From NCBI RefSeq assembly GCF_018437505.1, contig NZ_CP072467.1, positions 620,001 through 684,000 on the forward strand: a stretch of 64,000 bases of DNA, read 5' to 3'. The notes below the pieces were generated by a model. It was not told where the DNA came from. It saw only the letters and a program-made list of their open reading frames with translations, and searched no databases. Positions 6,394 to 13,733 of this stretch are shown one piece after another (position 1 is the stretch's first letter; the number at the start of each line of letters is the position of its first letter). Position numbers and translations under genes: made by a program. Source of the DNA: Spiractinospora alimapuensis (GTDB lineage Bacteria; Actinomycetota; Actinomycetes; Streptosporangiales; Streptosporangiaceae).

Positions 6394-7569
6394 TCACGAC
6401 CGGTTGTCGTCCTTCTCCCCGCCGTCGACGTCGGGCGTCGGGGTCGGAGCCGCGCCGTTCGAGGGCTGGACGGTGTCGGGCACGTCGGCGAGGGACCACT
6501 CGTCGGGGTGCGGCGCGAGTGGCTCGTCGCTCAACGGCTCAGGGGTCGGTGGGTCGTCGAGGCCGGGAACATCGAAGGCCGCGCGCAGGTGGTCGGCGTA
6601 CTCGCGGTTCCCGTGCGTGCTCAGAACCTCGGTCAGGCGGTCGACGAAGGTCTCTCGGGCGAACCCGTCCATGTCCTTGGCCGCGTCGGCGACCACGGTG
6701 ACCCACAGGTCCCGCGGGTCCGGCGCCGCGGGGTCGGACGGCCGCTCGGCGGCGGGTGGGTGAGTCGGGTTCGGGGGCGGGGATTCGGGTCCGGAGCCCG
6801 ACAGGTCCCGGTACAACTGCGGCACGGGGGCGCCGGTCGCGGCGGCGGACAGGGTCGAGAGCGTCCCGATGCGCTCGACGGTGTCCTCGACGCGGTCGGG
6901 GTTGCGGGCCAGCCACCACACCAGGGCCCGTCCCGGGTCGGCGAGCGCGTCCTCTCCGAGGTATTGGCGTTCCAGGCGTTCCAGTGCGCGTTCCTCCTCG
7001 CGGGCGGCCTGCTTCTTGCGGACCTCCCGCAGTTGAGTCAGTCGTTCCCGGTCGGAGTCGGCGAGCTCCAGTTGGACGTCCTCGGCCCACACGTAGCTCA
7101 CTCCCGGGTGAGGGCAGGGCCCGCCGCTGAGCACGAACGCGAGCTGGTGTCGCACGGCCTCGAACTCGTCGGGGTCCTCCGAGCGGAGATGGTGCCCCGC
7201 ACGCTCCCGGATGTTGAGGATCGCCGCGGCCTCGGCCTTGTGGTCGCTGAGGTCGGGGCCGCGCCAGCAGACCACGGCGCTGAGGAGGAACCGGTAGTCC
7301 TCGCGCGCACTGGCGAAGGACTCGCGCACCAGGTGCTTGCGTCGGGAGGACGGCTCGTCCGGCGGCTCCGGGGCAGGTGTCGCGGGGAACGTGGTCCGCT
7401 CCTGCGGGGCGGTCGGCCGTGCGCCGCCGCGGGTGAGGAACAGCGCTCCGGCCGCCACGAGCAGTGCCACGCCCGGGATAAGGACCCACCAGCCGAGGAG
7501 CGGCGCGGTGAGGGCGAGGGCGACGCTCGTGACGCACAGGATCATCAGGAGACGGGACGTGGAGTTCAC
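6394..7569 (-). CDS. Membrane-anchored protein of the cyclase/P-loop operon, unknown function
   Basis: I do not recognise this 391-residue protein. Two hydrophobic segments near residues 7-25 and 27-46 form a membrane hairpin. A Pro-rich linker follows, then a cytosolic helical region with an Arg/Glu-rich coiled-coil-like stretch (about residues 165-205, RKKQAAREEERALERLERQ) and an acidic, Pro-rich tail. Its GTG overlaps the stop of the 663-residue P-loop gene (GTGA), so it is the third gene of a coupled operon with the cyclase-like protein. A membrane-anchored partner or effector for that system is an inference. No cyclic-nucleotide-binding domain is visible in it. Confidence 0.75.
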   Translation of the reverse strand: MNSTSRLLMILCVTSVALALTAPLLGWWVLIPGVALLVAAGALFLTRGGARPTAPQERTTFPATPAPEPPDEPSSRRKHLVRESFASAREDYRFLLSAVVCWRGPDLSDHKAEAAAILNIRERAGHHLRSEDPDEFEAVRHQLAFVLSGGPCPHPGVSYVWAEDVQLELADSDRERLTQLREVRKKQAAREEERALERLERQYLGEDALADPGRALVWWLARNPDRVEDTVERIGTLSTLSAAATGAPVPQLYRDLSGSGPESPPPNPTHPPAAERPSDPAAPDPRDLWVTVVADAAKDMDGFARETFVDRLTEVLSTHGNREYADHLRAAFDVPGLDDPPTPEPLSDEPLAPHPDEWSLADVPDTVQPSNGAAPTPTPDVDGGEKDDNRS

Positions 7570-9557
7570 CGTGGACCCTCCCTACACAGGTCATGGCGGT
7601 TGATGCGGTGGATGACCGCGCACGCGACGTCGCGGCGCCGCTGGTATTCGTGCGGGGTCCGGCGTTCGTCGAGGGCCCAGCGGCGCGCCGTCGTGTAGAG
7701 CACGTGGCCGTGGCCGGTGGCGAGCGCCGCGTCGATGACGAGCGTGAGGGTGCGCCAGTGGTCGCCGGTGACGCAGGCCCGCAGCCAGCGCACCCCGTGG
7801 CGGTGGGCCTCGTCAGGGGCGGCGGCGATCGCCTTCTCGAGGCACGTGCGGAAGGCCTGCCCCTCGCGGTGGCCGGCGGGAAAGGTCGCGATCCCCGACG
7901 ACCCGTCCGCGTGGGTGAGGTGGAACAGCAGTTCGTGGTCGGTGGGGTTCATGTCCCGGGCCGCGAGCACCTGGAGGGCTGTCCTGCGGAACCGGGGGTC
8001 TTCATCGGCCGCACGCAGGATCTCGTTCTGGACGTGGTCGCGGACCAGAGGGTCGGCGTTGCGGGTGAGTCGTCGCAGTCGCACGAACGCCTGGTTCGGG
8101 TGGCTCTCCCGCAACGTGGTGACGCAGATCTGGGTGATGACCTGGGCGCGGATCAGCGGTGTCTCGCGCTGCTCCGCCCAGGCGTAGAGGCGTCGCCGGA
8201 CCGTCTGCGCCGCGTCCGGGTCGGCCAGGGCATCGGTCAGGATCTGGGTGGCTTCCAGGGGCCGCACCGTCTCCGACGGCGTGGTCCAGGAGTGAGCGAT
8301 ACGCAGCAGGGCGTCGAGCCGTCGCACTCGCAGGCACTGCTCCGTGAGACGGCGTGCCAGCCGTAGACCCTCGTCGCCGGTGAGCCGGAGGGTCTCCACG
8401 CACTCCTTGATCCAGCGTTCGAAGGCCGGGTGCAGCGGTTGTCGGTCGTCCCAGAACCTGTCCCGGATGGCGTTGGCGTAGGTGACGCGGGCGAAACGCA
8501 CCTGACGCTCCGGACCGATGGTGAACCCGAGTTTGCCCAGGCGGGCGGTGAAGCCCAGACGTTCCAACTCTGGAGTCTCCTCCATGGGGGCGTCGGTGTG
8601 TCGAAGGAGGATCATGGTCGCCGCGTGGACCTTCTCGAGCGCGAGGCCCTCCAGTACGGCCCCCGCGAGCAGGGTGGCGCGGTCCGCGCTGGCGACGTGG
8701 GTCTCCACCAGGCCCGTGATGTCGGCGTCGAGGTCCTTCATCGACGCCACGGCGGTGGCGAACCAGTCGGTGAACCCCGCCGTGGGGTTCGTGTTCCTCG
8801 CCCGGTTGGTGAAGTGGGCGAGGTCGGCGATGCTCTCGGTGTGGAGCCGCTCCACCCAGTGCCGGGTCTCGGCGTCGACCTTGCCGGTGGCCCTGGGGAG
8901 TTCCTGGTAGCGGAGGTGTCGGTCCAGGACCGCGAACGGTTCGGGGGGACGGATGTGGGCGACGCCGTCGCGGACGCTGAGTTCGAGCTGACGCTCCTGC
9001 TCTGACGTGACGATCACCGCGAGCCACGCCTCGGCCCTGGAGACGAAGCCCTCGTACTCGGGCAGGGCATGGAGCAGCGCGGTGAAGTCGTCCGCGGCGA
9101 TGTCGGTGGTGTCGAGGAGTAGGAACTCGCCGCTCTCGATCGCCGTCCCGTGCAGGGGTGGCTCGCCGTCGTCGGTGGCGCCGTCGGGCAGGCGGCGCAC
9201 CGGGCGGACGGCGTCCGCGCTGCGGGACAGCCACGCCACGGCGGCCGTGCGCTTACCGACACCCGCGGCCCCGGTGAAGTAGCCGACCCTGGTGCCATCG
9301 GTGGGAGGGAACCCCTCGGGTTGGACGAAGCACTTCGTGATGCGCCGCACCTCCTCGACGGAGATGACGCCTCTCCCCCGACGTACGGAGCCGCTTGTTG
9401 GGGGCAGCACCTGGATCTGCCGGAGGTAGTCGACGGCGGCGTCTCGGTCGAGCAGGTAGGTGTTGAACTGGTTCCCGGACCCGCTGTTCACCGTGTGGGC
9501 ACTACCGAAGGCGGTGTCGACGTTACCGGTGATGCCACCAACCCCGGAAGTGGTCAT
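7566..9557 (-). CDS. STAND-like P-loop NTPase with N-terminal shared motif
   Basis: A 663-residue protein. Residues 4-32 carry a Gly/Asn/Ser-rich motif (core GGITGNVDTAFGSAH then GSGNQFN) that matches the tail of the upstream cyclase-like protein. Next is a P-loop at 96-104 (GAAGVGKRT, with Arg where Ser/Thr normally follows GK), a Walker B-like FLLLDTTD and a sensor-like LAVIVTS strand. The second half is all-helical and rich in Arg and Leu, like the winged-helix and repeat region of STAND/NLR proteins. It overlaps the cyclase gene by ATGA and the membrane gene by GTGA. A conflict or signalling role is inferred from this layout; no family was assigned with certainty. Confidence 0.75.
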   Translation of the reverse strand: MTTSGVGGITGNVDTAFGSAHTVNSGSGNQFNTYLLDRDAAVDYLRQIQVLPPTSGSVRRGRGVISVEEVRRITKCFVQPEGFPPTDGTRVGYFTGAAGVGKRTAAVAWLSRSADAVRPVRRLPDGATDDGEPPLHGTAIESGEFLLLDTTDIAADDFTALLHALPEYEGFVSRAEAWLAVIVTSEQERQLELSVRDGVAHIRPPEPFAVLDRHLRYQELPRATGKVDAETRHWVERLHTESIADLAHFTNRARNTNPTAGFTDWFATAVASMKDLDADITGLVETHVASADRATLLAGAVLEGLALEKVHAATMILLRHTDAPMEETPELERLGFTARLGKLGFTIGPERQVRFARVTYANAIRDRFWDDRQPLHPAFERWIKECVETLRLTGDEGLRLARRLTEQCLRVRRLDALLRIAHSWTTPSETVRPLEATQILTDALADPDAAQTVRRRLYAWAEQRETPLIRAQVITQICVTTLRESHPNQAFVRLRRLTRNADPLVRDHVQNEILRAADEDPRFRRTALQVLAARDMNPTDHELLFHLTHADGSSGIATFPAGHREGQAFRTCLEKAIAAAPDEAHRHGVRWLRACVTGDHWRTLTLVIDAALATGHGHVLYTTARRWALDERRTPHEYQRRRDVACAVIHRINRHDLCREGPR

Positions 9558-10552
9558 GACGCGGTGTCCTCGTCGTCACGTCGGCGGTGCTTGGGGTGGT
9601 TGACCTGGTCGCCGGAACCGGTGTTGACCGGTCCATGCACCGAGCCGAACGCGGTTTCCACGTTGCCGTTGATGCCGCCGATACCGCCGTGGTGGTGGGT
9701 CTCGGTTCGGTCGCCGAGAGTGACGTCCTTGAGGTCGCGGCCTTGAACGAGGTTCCCGACCGTCCCACTGTTGTTGTTGGTGGATCCGTCGCTGCCGGAC
9801 GACGCTTCCTTGCTGGTGTCCTCCTGGACTGGTTCCGGCTGGTCGGCGCCGGACTCCGTCGGCGGCGCGTCGGGCGTCGCGAGGGTTCCGGTGACGGTGG
9901 TCCCGGGGCTGGGCCGGGGGACGTACACGTACACGGGCGCGGAGAACCCCTTGTTGGGGAGGTCGGCGGAGGCCTTGGTGAAGAGCCGTGCTCGCACTCC
10001 GGAACAGCCGCTGAGGACCGCGTCCTCGAAGACCCGTTGGGTCAGGCCGACGGCGACCAGCGTGGTTTCGGGGTCGCTGGTGTTCATGGCCTCGTACAGC
10101 GCGGGAGAGTTCAGGATGCGATGGGTTTCGTTCATCGCCGCCCCGATGCCGTCGTCGTTCCGGGCGCCGCCGCTGTTGGGAAGCGGTCCCACCCCGATCG
10201 CGGCACGCAGTCGCAGCCGCATCGATCGGTTCGCGTAGGCCAGACTCGGCTGCATCTCGTCCAGCACCGACTGCAGCTTGTCCATGAGGGGGTGGATCAG
10301 GAAGGGGAGGTAGGCCGGCTCCACCCCGACGATGTAGCCGTCTCCGGTGCTCTGGGGAAAGGACGCGTTCTCCCACAGCCGCGTCAGGTCGGCGTCCTCG
10401 AACGCCATGCGCAGGGCGTCGCGCAGCATGTTGTGCAGCGTGCCCTGGTCCTGGGACGGGTTGTGACTGAACTTCTCCGCGTCCACGACGAGCACGGCGT
10501 GGTACGGGGGCAACGGGACGCTGGTACGGGGAGTGCGCTGGGGGACGACCAT
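9554..10552 (-). CDS. Class III nucleotide cyclase-like protein with C-terminal shared motif
   Basis: A 332-residue protein. The first ~210 residues fit a class III (adenylate/guanylate) cyclase homology domain. The two metal Asp positions are D24 (VVDAEKFS) and D71 (STGDGYIVG), and the transition-state Asn-x3-Arg pair is N141/R145 (GAAMNETHRIL). All four catalytic positions are therefore present. The base-selecting residues, and so the nucleotide made, cannot be read by eye. A Ser/Gly/Asn-rich linker follows with a GNLVQGRDL element, then a ~30-residue motif (289-318) shared with the N-terminus of the next protein. GAGG lies 7 bases before the ATG. It is the first gene of a three-gene coupled operon behind a Crp-type regulator. 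Confidence 0.78.
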   Translation of the reverse strand: MVVPQRTPRTSVPLPPYHAVLVVDAEKFSHNPSQDQGTLHNMLRDALRMAFEDADLTRLWENASFPQSTGDGYIVGVEPAYLPFLIHPLMDKLQSVLDEMQPSLAYANRSMRLRLRAAIGVGPLPNSGGARNDDGIGAAMNETHRILNSPALYEAMNTSDPETTLVAVGLTQRVFEDAVLSGCSGVRARLFTKASADLPNKGFSAPVYVYVPRPSPGTTVTGTLATPDAPPTESGADQPEPVQEDTSKEASSGSDGSTNNNSGTVGNLVQGRDLKDVTLGDRTETHHHGGIGGINGNVETAFGSVHGPVNTGSGDQVNHPKHRRRDDEDTAS

Positions 10553-10621
10553 CAGGCTTCCTCTCGCGACGCGGGCCGGTCCGTCTCCGGCCGCCTCTGA
10601 CGAGAGTCGCGTGCCGTGATC

Positions 10622-10653
10622 CGCCGCAGTGTCCAGAATTGGACACTGCGGCG
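10622..10653 (-). promoter_or_regulatory. Perfect 14-base-arm palindrome before the cyclase operon
   Basis: Arms CGCCGCAGTGTCCA and TGGACACTGCGGCG flank a GAAT centre. The core TGTCC-N6-GGACA has the 5-6-5 geometry of Crp/Fnr sites. It lies 8 bases past the crp-like stop codon and about 70 bases before the cyclase ATG, so it may be the operator of the cyclase operon. A hairpin terminator is the alternative, but no T-run follows. Confidence 0.6.
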
Positions 10654-10660
10654 AACTATG

Positions 10661-11350
10661 TCAGCGGTCACCCCGCGCGAGGTCCCGGAGCTGGGCCACA
10701 TCGACGACGGTGATCTGGTGTCGCTGTGTTTCCACCAGGCCGTCGCGGCGCAGGCGCTGGAACTCTCCGGCGACCGACGACCTCGACAGGCCGATCCAGT
10801 CACCCAACTCCTGCTGGGACAGCCCCAGGCGCAGGACCGCTCCCCTGGTCTCACTTCCGGACGGTTGGACGGGGACCCCGAGCAGCGCGGTCAGGCGGAG
10901 TAACGCGGCGGCGAGCCGTTGCCCGGCGGGGAGCGCGATGATGTCCGTACGCAGCGCCTCACTCTCCTGGTGGCGCCGAACCACGTGTCCCCAGACGGCG
11001 GTCTCCATCCGCAGCCGCCGCACGAGGAGGTTGAAGTGCGGACCGATCAGCGCTCGGGTCACGCACGGACCGCCGCAGGCGGTGACCGTGGCGGTGCGCG
11101 CCAGACCCGAGAGGGCCGAGAACTCCCCGAGCGCCTCTCCCGGTCCCCGCAGCGCCAGGAGGCTCGCTCCTCCCTCAACCCGGTCGGAGGTCACCTTCAC
11201 GATTCCCTCGGCCAGGAGGAACACGGTGGAGTCGAGCTCCCCCTGCCGGATGATCACCTCGCCGTCGTCGAAGCGGCGGTGTGCTCCTCGGGCGAGGAGC
11301 CGCGTCCATGTGTCGTCGCTCAGCAGCGCACCGAACCCCTGTCTGACCAC
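10661..11350 (-). CDS. Crp/Fnr family transcriptional regulator
   Basis: A 229-residue protein with an N-terminal cNMP-binding beta-roll and a C-terminal winged HTH (LSQQELGDWIGLSRSSVAGE). The phosphate-binding cassette keeps Gly-Glu and Arg-Thr-Ala (LGEFSALSGLARTATV), so cyclic nucleotide binding is plausible. Start is GTG with AGGAGA 7 bases upstream. It precedes the predicted cyclase gene on the same strand, 108 bases away, with a Crp-geometry palindrome in the gap. The natural reading is that it senses the nucleotide made by the next gene product and controls that operon. Confidence 0.88.
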   Translation of the reverse strand: MVRQGFGALLSDDTWTRLLARGAHRRFDDGEVIIRQGELDSTVFLLAEGIVKVTSDRVEGGASLLALRGPGEALGEFSALSGLARTATVTACGGPCVTRALIGPHFNLLVRRLRMETAVWGHVVRRHQESEALRTDIIALPAGQRLAAALLRLTALLGVPVQPSGSETRGAVLRLGLSQQELGDWIGLSRSSVAGEFQRLRRDGLVETQRHQITVVDVAQLRDLARGDR

Positions 11351-11379
11351 TCACGACTCTCCTACCGATTCTGGGGGAT

Positions 11380-11402
11380 TTCGCGGAGTTGTTCCCCGCG
11401 AA
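11380..11402 (-). promoter_or_regulatory. Inverted repeat upstream of the Crp-type gene
   Basis: TTCGCGG-N9-CCGCGAA, 29 bases before the GTG start. It may be an operator or leader hairpin. It does not resemble the palindrome downstream of the gene. Confidence 0.35.
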
Positions 11403-11501
11403 GCCCGTGATCGCCCCCGGTAGTGGCCGATTTCCTCGGTTCGGCGGGCGGGGATTTGTCGTCCGTGGGGGCGATCGTCGGCGTCTCGGCTGGCGGGGGG
11501 C

Positions 11502-13733
11502 TCAGTGCGTGAGGCCGATCCGGTCGTGCAGCCTGCGCAGGGGACGTGGGGCCCACCAGTTGGCGGAGCCGGCCAAGCGCATGAAGGCGGGGAGGAGGAC
11601 GGCGCGGATGAGGGTGGCGTCGACGAGGATCGCCACCGCGAGGCCGATCCCCAACATCTGCAGCCACGTGACCCCGGAGGTGGCGTAGGCGGCGAAGGAG
11701 GCCGCGAGGATCACACCGGCCGCCGTGATGAGGGGTCCGCTGCGTTGGAGCCCGACGGCGGTGGCGTGTGTGGTGTCGCCGGTGCGGTCGTACTCCTCCT
11801 TGATGCGGGCCAGCATGAACACCTCGTAGTCCATGGACAGCCCGTAGGCGATACAGAACATGAGGATCGGGAAGCTGAGCTCCAGGGCTCCCGGTGGGGT
11901 GAAGCCCAACAGTCCCGCGAGGTTGCCCTCCTGGAAGCCCCACACCAACACCCCGAACATCACGCTCAGACTGAGCAGGTTCAGCACGGTGGCCTTCGCC
12001 GGGATCAGCAGGCTGCCGGTGAGGAGGAACAGGATCACGAAGGTGACGCCGAGGACGAGAACTAGCAGCAGCGGGAGCCGGTCGAGCAGGGAGTCGCGAT
12101 AGTCCACCAGGTCTGCGGGGTATCCGCCCACCTCCACGGGGTAGCCGGCGTCGTGGGTCCGTACCTCCTCGACCAGTCCGAAGGGGTCGGTGTCCAGTCG
12201 TTCGATCGTGGGGACCACCGAGAGCCACACGCCGGTGTCGGCGGTGAACCGGTCGGCGTAGCTCGCCGGCCCCTCGACCCGCTGGCCGTCGGTGAAGGCC
12301 CCGGTCGGACCGTCCACGCGTTCCACACCCTCGATGTCGGAGAGCGCGGCGGCGTGGGCGTCGAGTTCGGTGTCGCCGAGCCGGTCTCCCCTAACCAGGA
12401 CGTGGAGGGCGTCCATCTCCTCGGCGGTGAAGTTAGCGCTGACCTGTTCCTGGGCCTGTCGTGACGGGGCGTGTTCGGGCAGGGTGGACTCGTCGGGAAG
12501 ACCGAAACGGACGTTGAGCGCGGGCGCGGCCAACGTCAACAGCACGAGGATCACGGCGAGCGCGCTCACCACCGGACGGCGCATCACCCAGTGGGCGGTC
12601 CGGCTCCAGAACCCGGTGTCGGCCTCGGTGTCCTGGCGCCCCCACAGGCGTCGTGCCGCGCGGTGTCCCAGCAGTGCGAGCACGGCGGGCAGGAAGACCA
12701 CCGAGCCCACGACCCCGGCGACGACCACGGCGATCCCCGCGTAGGCGAAGGAGCGAAGGAAGTCGAAGGGGAGCGCCACCAGCATCGCCATGGACACCGC
12801 GACCGTGACACCGCTGAAGATGACGGTCCGGCCCGCGAAGGCGACACACCGCTCCACGGCGTCGGCGACGGAGCGCCCGGATCGCAGCTCCTCCCGGAAG
12901 CGTTGGATCAGGAACAGGCAGTAGTCGACGCCGAGCGCGAGTCCCATCACCAGGGTGATGTTGAGCGCGAAGGTGGACAGTTCCGCGAACCAGGTGACGG
13001 GGCGAAGCAGGGCCAGCGTGCCGAGCATGGTGAAGACGCCGACGCCAACCGGAGCGATCGCCATCCACACGTTGCGCAGCACCAGCAGCAACAGGAGGAA
13101 GACCGTGGGAAAGATGATGAGTTCGGCGCGCACGAAGTCCGCGGTGGCCTCGCTACTGGCGTCGAGGAAGACGGCTTCCCCGCCACCGATCTGGATGCGG
13201 TAGGTGTCGGTGTCCCGGGTGAACTCCTCCAGGAAGTCCGGCAGTACGTCGCGGCGGACCTCGTCGGCGTCTCCGGGTACGCGCGCCAGGATCAACGCCT
13301 GGGTGCCGTCCTCGGCCCGCATCGTGGGGGTGTGGTCGTGCGTCCAGTACGAGTAGGCCTCCGCCACGCCGTCGAAGGCGGCGATCTCCTCGGTGAGGCG
13401 TCGTCCCTCCTCAGCGAAGGACGCGTCGTCCACATCGCCCTCATATGCGGTGACCACGACCGTGATGTTGGTGCGGCCCGCCCCGAAGTCCTCCTGCAGG
13501 GTCGTGGCGACCCGGTCGGACTCCGAACCCGCGGCCTCGAATCGGGACAGGACGAGGGACGCCGCGGTGGGAACCCCGACGAGTCCGCTCATCACGAGGC
13601 TGAGCAGGCCAGCGAGCAGCACGGTGCGGGGCCGACGTGCCGTCAGCCGTCCCCATCGGGCCAGGAGGCCGGAGGGAGCCACCGAGGGGTCCTGGTGGGA
13701 AGGGGCGGGGTGAGTGCGATGTGACAGGAACAC
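11502..13733 (-). CDS. MMPL/RND family exporter
   Basis: A 743-residue integral membrane protein of the MmpL type. It has an N-terminal helix, a large extracytoplasmic loop and a five-helix bundle, and then repeats this plan. The proton-relay Asp-Tyr pairs are present in both bundles (GLALGVDYCLF and YGLSMDYEVFML). The family exports lipids, siderophores or drugs. Start GTG 13733 is preferred (GAGG 4 bases upstream); GTG 13748 is possible but lacks a site. It is divergent from a TetR gene across a short gap with two related operators, so it is probably repressed by that regulator. Confidence 0.88.
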   Translation of the reverse strand: MFLSHRTHPAPSHQDPSVAPSGLLARWGRLTARRPRTVLLAGLLSLVMSGLVGVPTAASLVLSRFEAAGSESDRVATTLQEDFGAGRTNITVVVTAYEGDVDDASFAEEGRRLTEEIAAFDGVAEAYSYWTHDHTPTMRAEDGTQALILARVPGDADEVRRDVLPDFLEEFTRDTDTYRIQIGGGEAVFLDASSEATADFVRAELIIFPTVFLLLLLVLRNVWMAIAPVGVGVFTMLGTLALLRPVTWFAELSTFALNITLVMGLALGVDYCLFLIQRFREELRSGRSVADAVERCVAFAGRTVIFSGVTVAVSMAMLVALPFDFLRSFAYAGIAVVVAGVVGSVVFLPAVLALLGHRAARRLWGRQDTEADTGFWSRTAHWVMRRPVVSALAVILVLLTLAAPALNVRFGLPDESTLPEHAPSRQAQEQVSANFTAEEMDALHVLVRGDRLGDTELDAHAAALSDIEGVERVDGPTGAFTDGQRVEGPASYADRFTADTGVWLSVVPTIERLDTDPFGLVEEVRTHDAGYPVEVGGYPADLVDYRDSLLDRLPLLLVLVLGVTFVILFLLTGSLLIPAKATVLNLLSLSVMFGVLVWGFQEGNLAGLLGFTPPGALELSFPILMFCIAYGLSMDYEVFMLARIKEEYDRTGDTTHATAVGLQRSGPLITAAGVILAASFAAYATSGVTWLQMLGIGLAVAILVDATLIRAVLLPAFMRLAGSANWWAPRPLRRLHDRIGLTH

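Follow-up and report, generated by a model that had tools for sequence, protein, structure and literature searches.

A conserved Crp-type operator and a probable positive-feedback loop at an actinobacterial class III cyclase-like operon

A perfect palindrome lies between a crp gene and a class III nucleotide cyclase-like gene in the window, the 64,000-nucleotide stretch of Spiractinospora alimapuensis DNA analysed here. The palindrome is probably the operator of the upstream-encoded Crp, from which Crp would activate the cyclase operon in class II manner and in positive feedback. As judged from comparison of sequences, a self-amplifying Crp–cyclase loop very probably occurs in many actinobacteria. 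The weight of evidence lies in conservation among relatives; the bare core is not enriched in the window (one occurrence with at most one mismatch, against 3.5 expected).

In the proposed mechanism, a Crp dimer would bind TGTCC-N6-GGACA with the centre of the site 41.5 bp ahead of the transcript start, replace the −35 element, and activate a weak promoter in class II manner. The transcript under its control would comprise the cyclase, the NTPase-like gene, and the third gene. The product nucleotide of the cyclase would then load Crp and raise its own synthesis, giving a positive-feedback switch. Positive feedback is the simplest circuit, because the operon opens with the cyclase gene and a cNMP pocket is present in Crp. 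We infer Crp binding, activation over repression, this cyclase's product as the ligand, and the identity of the nucleotide; in principle, a Crp bound at −41.5 might work free of cNMP.

The palindrome and its relatives

The palindrome (10622–10653, minus strand) was detected by an inverted-repeat search. Its 14-nt arms, at 10622–10635 and 10640–10653, are 100% complementary and flank a 4-nt loop that reads GAAT on the plus strand and ATTC on the minus strand, the strand of both flanking genes. The 16-base core TGTCCAGAATTGGACA occupies 10630–10645. The conserved 20-bp operator AGTGTCC-N6-GGACACT occupies 10628–10647 on the minus strand, with a 16-bp core of 5-6-5 geometry and its centre at the predicted −41.5. 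The palindrome sits in a 108-base gap, with crp (10661–11350) ending on one side and the cyclase-like gene (10552–9554) beginning on the other. The earlier note had described 14-base arms around GAAT with a TGTCC-N6-GGACA core, situated between a Crp gene and a cyclase operon; both the letters and the placement are exactly so. The 32-mer folds with z = −9.4 relative to shuffles. The inverted-repeat search reported two repeats in 2.5 kb, of which the palindrome is one. Between crp and an MMPL transporter gene, an imperfect inverted repeat (23 nt, 78%) is located at 11396–11489.

At E up to 0.001, 138 of the 297 genomes in the source family, own genome among them, encode homologues of the cyclase protein. 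Two overlapping sets of loci were compiled. The first contains 70 loci with the stronger matches among the family genomes, own genome included; the second contains 68 loci, including those of Nocardiopsis, Streptomonospora, Amycolatopsis, Actinokineospora, Saccharopolyspora, Salinispora, and Kribbella. In 61 of the 70 first-set loci the cyclase homologue is preceded by a Crp gene, two of the nine others starting near contig ends; in the second set, 46 of the 68 loci have one at most 600 bases upstream. Together the sets yield 107 crp–cyclase gaps, of which 88 are distinct; stacking and pairing counts refer to 57 non-redundant gaps.

A site matrix was seeded with TGTGTYC-N6-GRACACA and refined on the gaps, giving a refined core of TGTYY-N6-RRACA, and the cut-off was set at 8 bits. 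Matches above 8 bits occur in 67 of the 88 gaps, compared with 22 of 1760 shuffled gaps and 1 of 87 cyclase-coding stretches of equal length; the count of 67 is flattered by being made on the gaps used for refinement, and the controls are still far apart. Above 12 bits, the matrix matches 65 of the 88 gaps, 4 of the 1760 shuffled gaps, none of the 87 cyclase-coding stretches, and none of the 88 stretches upstream of crp. Upstream of crp, four of 88 stretches exceed 8 bits and none of them is accompanied by a −10 element, so there is no support for autoregulation of crp at its own promoter.

Of the 21 gaps below the cut-off, 12 carry a dyad akin to the site, with 2 to 5 of 5 pairs, located with the −10 element as anchor; because the −10 element was required in their search, they add no independent evidence on the spacing. 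Two more gaps (L041 and L150) have an altered dyad, assigned by eye, that lacks the exact spacing to the −10 element. The sites assigned by hand thus number 14, of which 12 are anchored on the −10 element. No site was assigned in 7 of the 88 gaps (L087, L089, L096, L129, L131, L137, and L138), all of which belong to Crps with Arg-Asn helices.

GC-rich palindromes ahead of the cyclase start are frequent among the gaps. In six of them (L033, L036, L039, L040, L043, and L048) a second GC-rich palindrome, variable in sequence, is found near the predicted start, and its counterpart in the window is at about 10560–10600. This second palindrome may form a hairpin in the leader. However, the fold of the 5′ leader of the predicted window transcript is not exceptional (z −0.25), and a mechanism based on such a hairpin was set aside for this reason.

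Promoter geometry and the recognition helix of Crp

The gaps were stacked on the site by a search blind to the −10 columns, and offsets are numbered from the first base of the 20-mer. Two further columns are nearly fixed, A at +40 and T at +44, each in 55 of the 57 non-redundant gaps. The pair occurs together in 55/57, compared with at most 5/57 at any of the other offsets between 20 and 69; over all gaps with a matrix site it occurs in 65/67, the misses being L043 and L088. Elements of the −10 class keep A-nnn-T at −11 and −7. With −7 at +44 the predicted start falls at +51, and the site centre, at 9.5, falls at −41.5, the class II position. In passages of PMC5957442, E. coli class II Crp sites are placed at −41.5 and class I sites at −61.5.

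In the window, the predicted −10 element GACTCT occupies 10603–10608 on the minus strand, with A−11 at 10607, T−7 at 10603, and no T at −12. The predicted transcription start, placed by the −10 geometry alone, is the A at 10596 (minus strand). T at −12 is found in none of 65 gaps, a feature that may keep the promoter weak when the activator is absent. Columns upstream of the site carry at most 0.31 bit. In the interval between the site and the −10 element, the top column is C at +21, two bases past the 20-mer, with 0.59 bit. Therefore, there is no separate conserved −35 element. The predicted promoter has the features of class II, with its site centre at −41.5 from the putative −10 element (55/57) and an independent −35 element absent.

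The Crp-family regulator encoded by crp (10661–11350, minus strand) consists of an N-terminal cNMP-binding domain (PF00027, E 1e-12) and a C-terminal Crp HTH (PF13545, E 3.8e-16), with the recognition helix GLSRSSVAGEF. The phosphate-binding cassette (GE...R-S/T-A) is kept among 61 Crps: Arg in 58, Glu in 49, and Gly in 60. Passages of PMC12531629 name Arg180, Glu181, and Arg185 as the residues through which E. coli CRP contacts bases. By eye, the helix of the Crps studied here has Ser, Thr, Ala, or Gly at the position of Glu181 and a residue other than Arg at the position of Arg185.

Helix and site differ together. Among the 88 loci, 71 encode a standard helix (Arg followed by Ser, Thr, Ala, or Gly) and 17 an altered one; four of the 17, from a single Nocardiopsis group, have Leu in place of Arg, and thirteen have Asn after Arg. 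A matrix site above the cut-off is present in 67 of the 71 standard-helix loci, compared with none of the 17 altered-helix loci (Fisher 1e-14, kinship disregarded). The four standard-helix loci without one are L070–L072, where the site lies upstream of the scanned stretch, and L086, which falls just below the cut-off. In the altered sites named by hand, the third position of the half-site is C instead of T in 10/10 altered-helix loci, the half-sites being mostly TGCAC or TGCCC; one altered half-site is also found in 2 of the 71 standard-helix loci (L062 and L063). Trees that leave out the helix columns place three independent helix and site changes on well-supported branches in one analysis and two in another. 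Helix and site changed together, except in 26 of 200 random pairings of the three-change analysis that include one non-differing pair. A sign test gives a median p of 0.25 with about three changes and a p of 0.5 with two pairs, so the link between helix and site is short of significance because independent changes are too few. A genus search for more Arg-to-Leu loci matched 21 of 40 genomes and added no close relative.

Across the phylum, the cyclase profile matched 10 of 396 genomes, own genome included. The Crps of the distant loci have other recognition helices, and the −10 element at class II distance is absent from these relatives. In L225 and L230, of another family, a Crp with the E. 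coli-like helix SREMVQR stands above TGTGC-ACACGG-TCACA; by eye this site looks canonical (TGTGC-N6-TCACA), and the class II spacing to a −10 element is absent.

Sites are also found away from crp. The 5.86-Mb source genome has three listed copies of the exact 18-mer GTGTCC-N6-GGACAC, the other two within long mechanical ORFs, and the exact site with a −10 element is likewise found in three places, the two others within long open frames. With at most one mismatch, the pattern of site and −10 element occurs 59 times in the own genome, compared with 11 for a backwards control. Most cyclases without an adjacent Crp are devoid of the site: among those not at contig ends (n = 25, duplicates excluded), four exceed 8 bits; three of these, L068, L118, and L124, have the site with a −10 element, as does L123, which is at a contig end. 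The genomes of L068, L118, and L124 hold Crp–cyclase pairs elsewhere (L034 and L063; L036; L033 and L062), which fits an action in trans. From their sequences, the three operons form possible small regulons. L118 is on the same contig as L065, and L124 on the same contig as L069. Amycolatopsis-type loci (L121, L125, L126, L128, L130, and others) have neither Crp nor site beside the cyclase homologue, and their cyclase C-termini share another motif, of the AIQVGHLHGGLH type.

Alternative readings of the site

The palindrome can form a strong RNA stem (−28.3 kcal/mol in the source genome) just past the crp stop codon, as would an intrinsic terminator or the mRNA 3′ end of crp, a reading we regard as extremely unlikely. 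Its defining arrangement, a GC stem followed by a T run, is missing: a search of 10400–11600 found neither a T run nor a terminator-like site. Among the 57 non-redundant gaps, pairing of the arms exceeds expectation up to six bases outside the 16-base core, which speaks for a stem, and is at chance level beyond; perfect arms of at least 14 bases are found in two, the window and L053. The earlier note had proposed aligning the crp–cyclase gaps of relatives and had named a stem kept as pairing only as the outcome against an operator. In that alignment the core letters are kept and the outer arms drift, and the named outcome did not occur. Conservation of letters with drifting outer arms indicates a DNA operator and argues against a terminator or RNA stem. 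In addition, one group of loci has a site that includes part of the crp stop codon, and in L070–L072 the site lies inside the 3′ end of crp, so that in several loci it overlaps or precedes the stop. The sole Rfam match is far below the gathering score of its family, which disfavours an RNA element.

Given a DNA operator, its occupant could be a different regulator, the neighbouring Crp controlling something else. Other actinobacterial regulators bind palindromes too, and few independent events stand behind the link between helix and site. However, the 5-6-5 geometry and the class II distance are features of Crp, the site accompanies an adjacent Crp, and the standard site is lost with the altered helices in 17/17, making a different regulator very unlikely. 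The chief rival is repression of the cyclase promoter by Crp itself, or action of Crp with no ligand. A repressing Crp would either occupy the site when free and depart as the nucleotide rises, or damp synthesis when loaded, in negative feedback as at E. coli cya. The site occupies the usual location of a −35 element, and the sign of the loop, being drawn from geometry, is compatible with repression. However, the 41.5-bp spacing is fixed in 55/57, where the site of a repressor would be freer to move, and a promoter with no separate conserved −35 element and no T at −12 (65/65) resembles one that needs an activator. Repression is therefore unlikely. Activation is expected of a Crp that is predicted to sit at −41.5 where the promoter has no −35 element, and the promoter geometry argues for this sign of the loop, which the earlier note does not specify. 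The suggestion of the earlier note that Crp may control the cyclase operon is supported by the conserved site, the fixed −10 element, the joint change of helix and site, and the cyclase fold predicted downstream.

The controlled operon and a possible input to the cyclase

The class III nucleotide cyclase-like gene (9554–10552, minus strand) is the first gene of the putative controlled operon. Its product has no Pfam, PADLOC, or NCBIfam match at the thresholds used, and none of 40 aligned members matches Pfam at E 0.01. An AlphaFold2 model made with 40 sequences has a mean pLDDT of 79.7, with block means of at least 90 across residues 11–210. The model resembles class III adenylyl, guanylyl, and uridylyl cyclases (Foldseek best 4wp8, E 3.9e-8), and its comparison with 2bw7 gives a VIA Z of 17.1 and an rmsd of 2.7 over 172 residues. 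The sequence profile matched Ma1120 and 3mr7 weakly (E about 0.004). Residues D24 and D71, invariant in the 40 sequences, are by motif and GDG alignment a putative metal-binding Asp pair. The downstream gene thus has, as modelled, a class III cyclase fold. Assignment to Pycsar defence, which combines a PycC cyclase with a TIR or TM effector bearing a cNMP domain, was rejected, the cyclase having no PADLOC match at E 0.01; matches of Crp to TIR-effector and PycC models are confined to residues within 13–131, and Crp has an HTH.

The start of the second gene (7566–9557, minus strand) overlaps the cyclase stop, and the start of the third (6394–7569, minus strand) overlaps the second-gene stop; owing to these head-to-tail overlaps, the three genes look like one transcript. 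The second gene encodes a putative STAND-like NTPase with the degenerate P-loop GAAGVGKRT. Among its relatives, the strict P-loop motif is found in 0/30 and a loose motif in 24/30, and one of five scanned (L135) matches nSTAND3, below the curated cut-off. The third gene, with no assigned function, is related to 14 downstream ORFs of second-set loci.

A C-terminal motif of the cyclase (aa 290–318; 9599–9685, minus strand) matches an N-terminal motif of the second protein (aa 5–32; 9462–9545, minus strand). Such matched pairs recur with lineage-specific letters, e.g., in L102, L106, L108, L140, L151, L155, and L156. The mean pairing score is 73.6 with the own partner, compared with 34.4 with mismatched partners, a signal that includes the relatedness of whole loci. 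The own partner ranks first in 23 of 44 loci and within the top three in 34, and its preference is absent in three (L105, L107, and L154). Scores above 35 are reached in 41/44 loci, compared with 2/44 for a stretch from the body of the same protein and 146/880 for shuffles.

Similar motifs on an effector and a neighbouring NLR protein are the hallmark of BASS in passages of PMC8086366, where the effectors named are Bell proteins. The pairs described here are like these Bell–NLR pairs in the similarity of the C-terminal motif of the effector to the N-terminal motif of its neighbour. They differ in having a class III cyclase as partner, a second protein that is no more than STAND-like and has a degenerate P-loop, and a putative amyloid. 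The matched motifs hint at an amyloid-type input to the cyclase, and we suggest that the second protein feeds the cyclase while the Crp promoter amplifies. The locus could then be an alarm, in which a STAND-like sensor would act through amyloid-type motifs on the class III cyclase, whose nucleotide would load Crp to make, in class II manner, more cyclase and sensor, locking the system 'on'. This alarm is possible, if doubtful; the degenerate P-loop of the second protein makes it less probable.

The E. coli CRP half-site consensus is TGTGA, and E. coli cya is under negative feedback, its expression being lowered by the global CRP; a search of open-licence full-text literature for negative control of E. 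coli cya returned no match. The predicted loop is like E. coli cya control in that a cNMP receptor acts on the cyclase gene, and unlike it in that Crp is encoded beside the cyclase and appears to raise expression, whereas there the global CRP lowers it. Unlike in E. coli class II promoters, the half-site is TGTYC, not TGTGA, and the target is the cyclase operon itself. In common with class II CRP promoters (E. coli CRP and, from PMC12531629, a Thermus regulator), the centre lies at −41.5 and the activator would replace the −35 element. Actinobacterial conflict systems include CRP-like cNMP-recognising factors linked to ATPase modules, and cNMP cyclases too (passages of Kaur et al. 2020, PMC7159879). 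These are the features in common with the present locus; the accessible passages of that paper describe no site or feedback, and the word 'promoter' has 0 occurrences in its main text. Among the matches listed from open-licence full texts (titles and abstract starts), there is no description of the cluster or circuit.

The circuit would join known kinds: class II Crp activation, a class III cyclase, and feedback between adjacent genes. A Pfam-orphan actinobacterial cyclase family would gain a concrete control circuit that one promoter and two proteins would suffice to test. A natural specificity set for Crp-family proteins is offered by the lineages that differ jointly in helix and site. The matched protein termini indicate what may feed the cyclase; if the alarm reading is true, an amyloid-coupled cyclase effector that has a transcriptional amplifier to itself would be an arrangement new to bacterial immunity or signalling. 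If the loop is positive, it would be a ready-made cyclic-nucleotide switch, opposite in sign to the control of E. coli cya.
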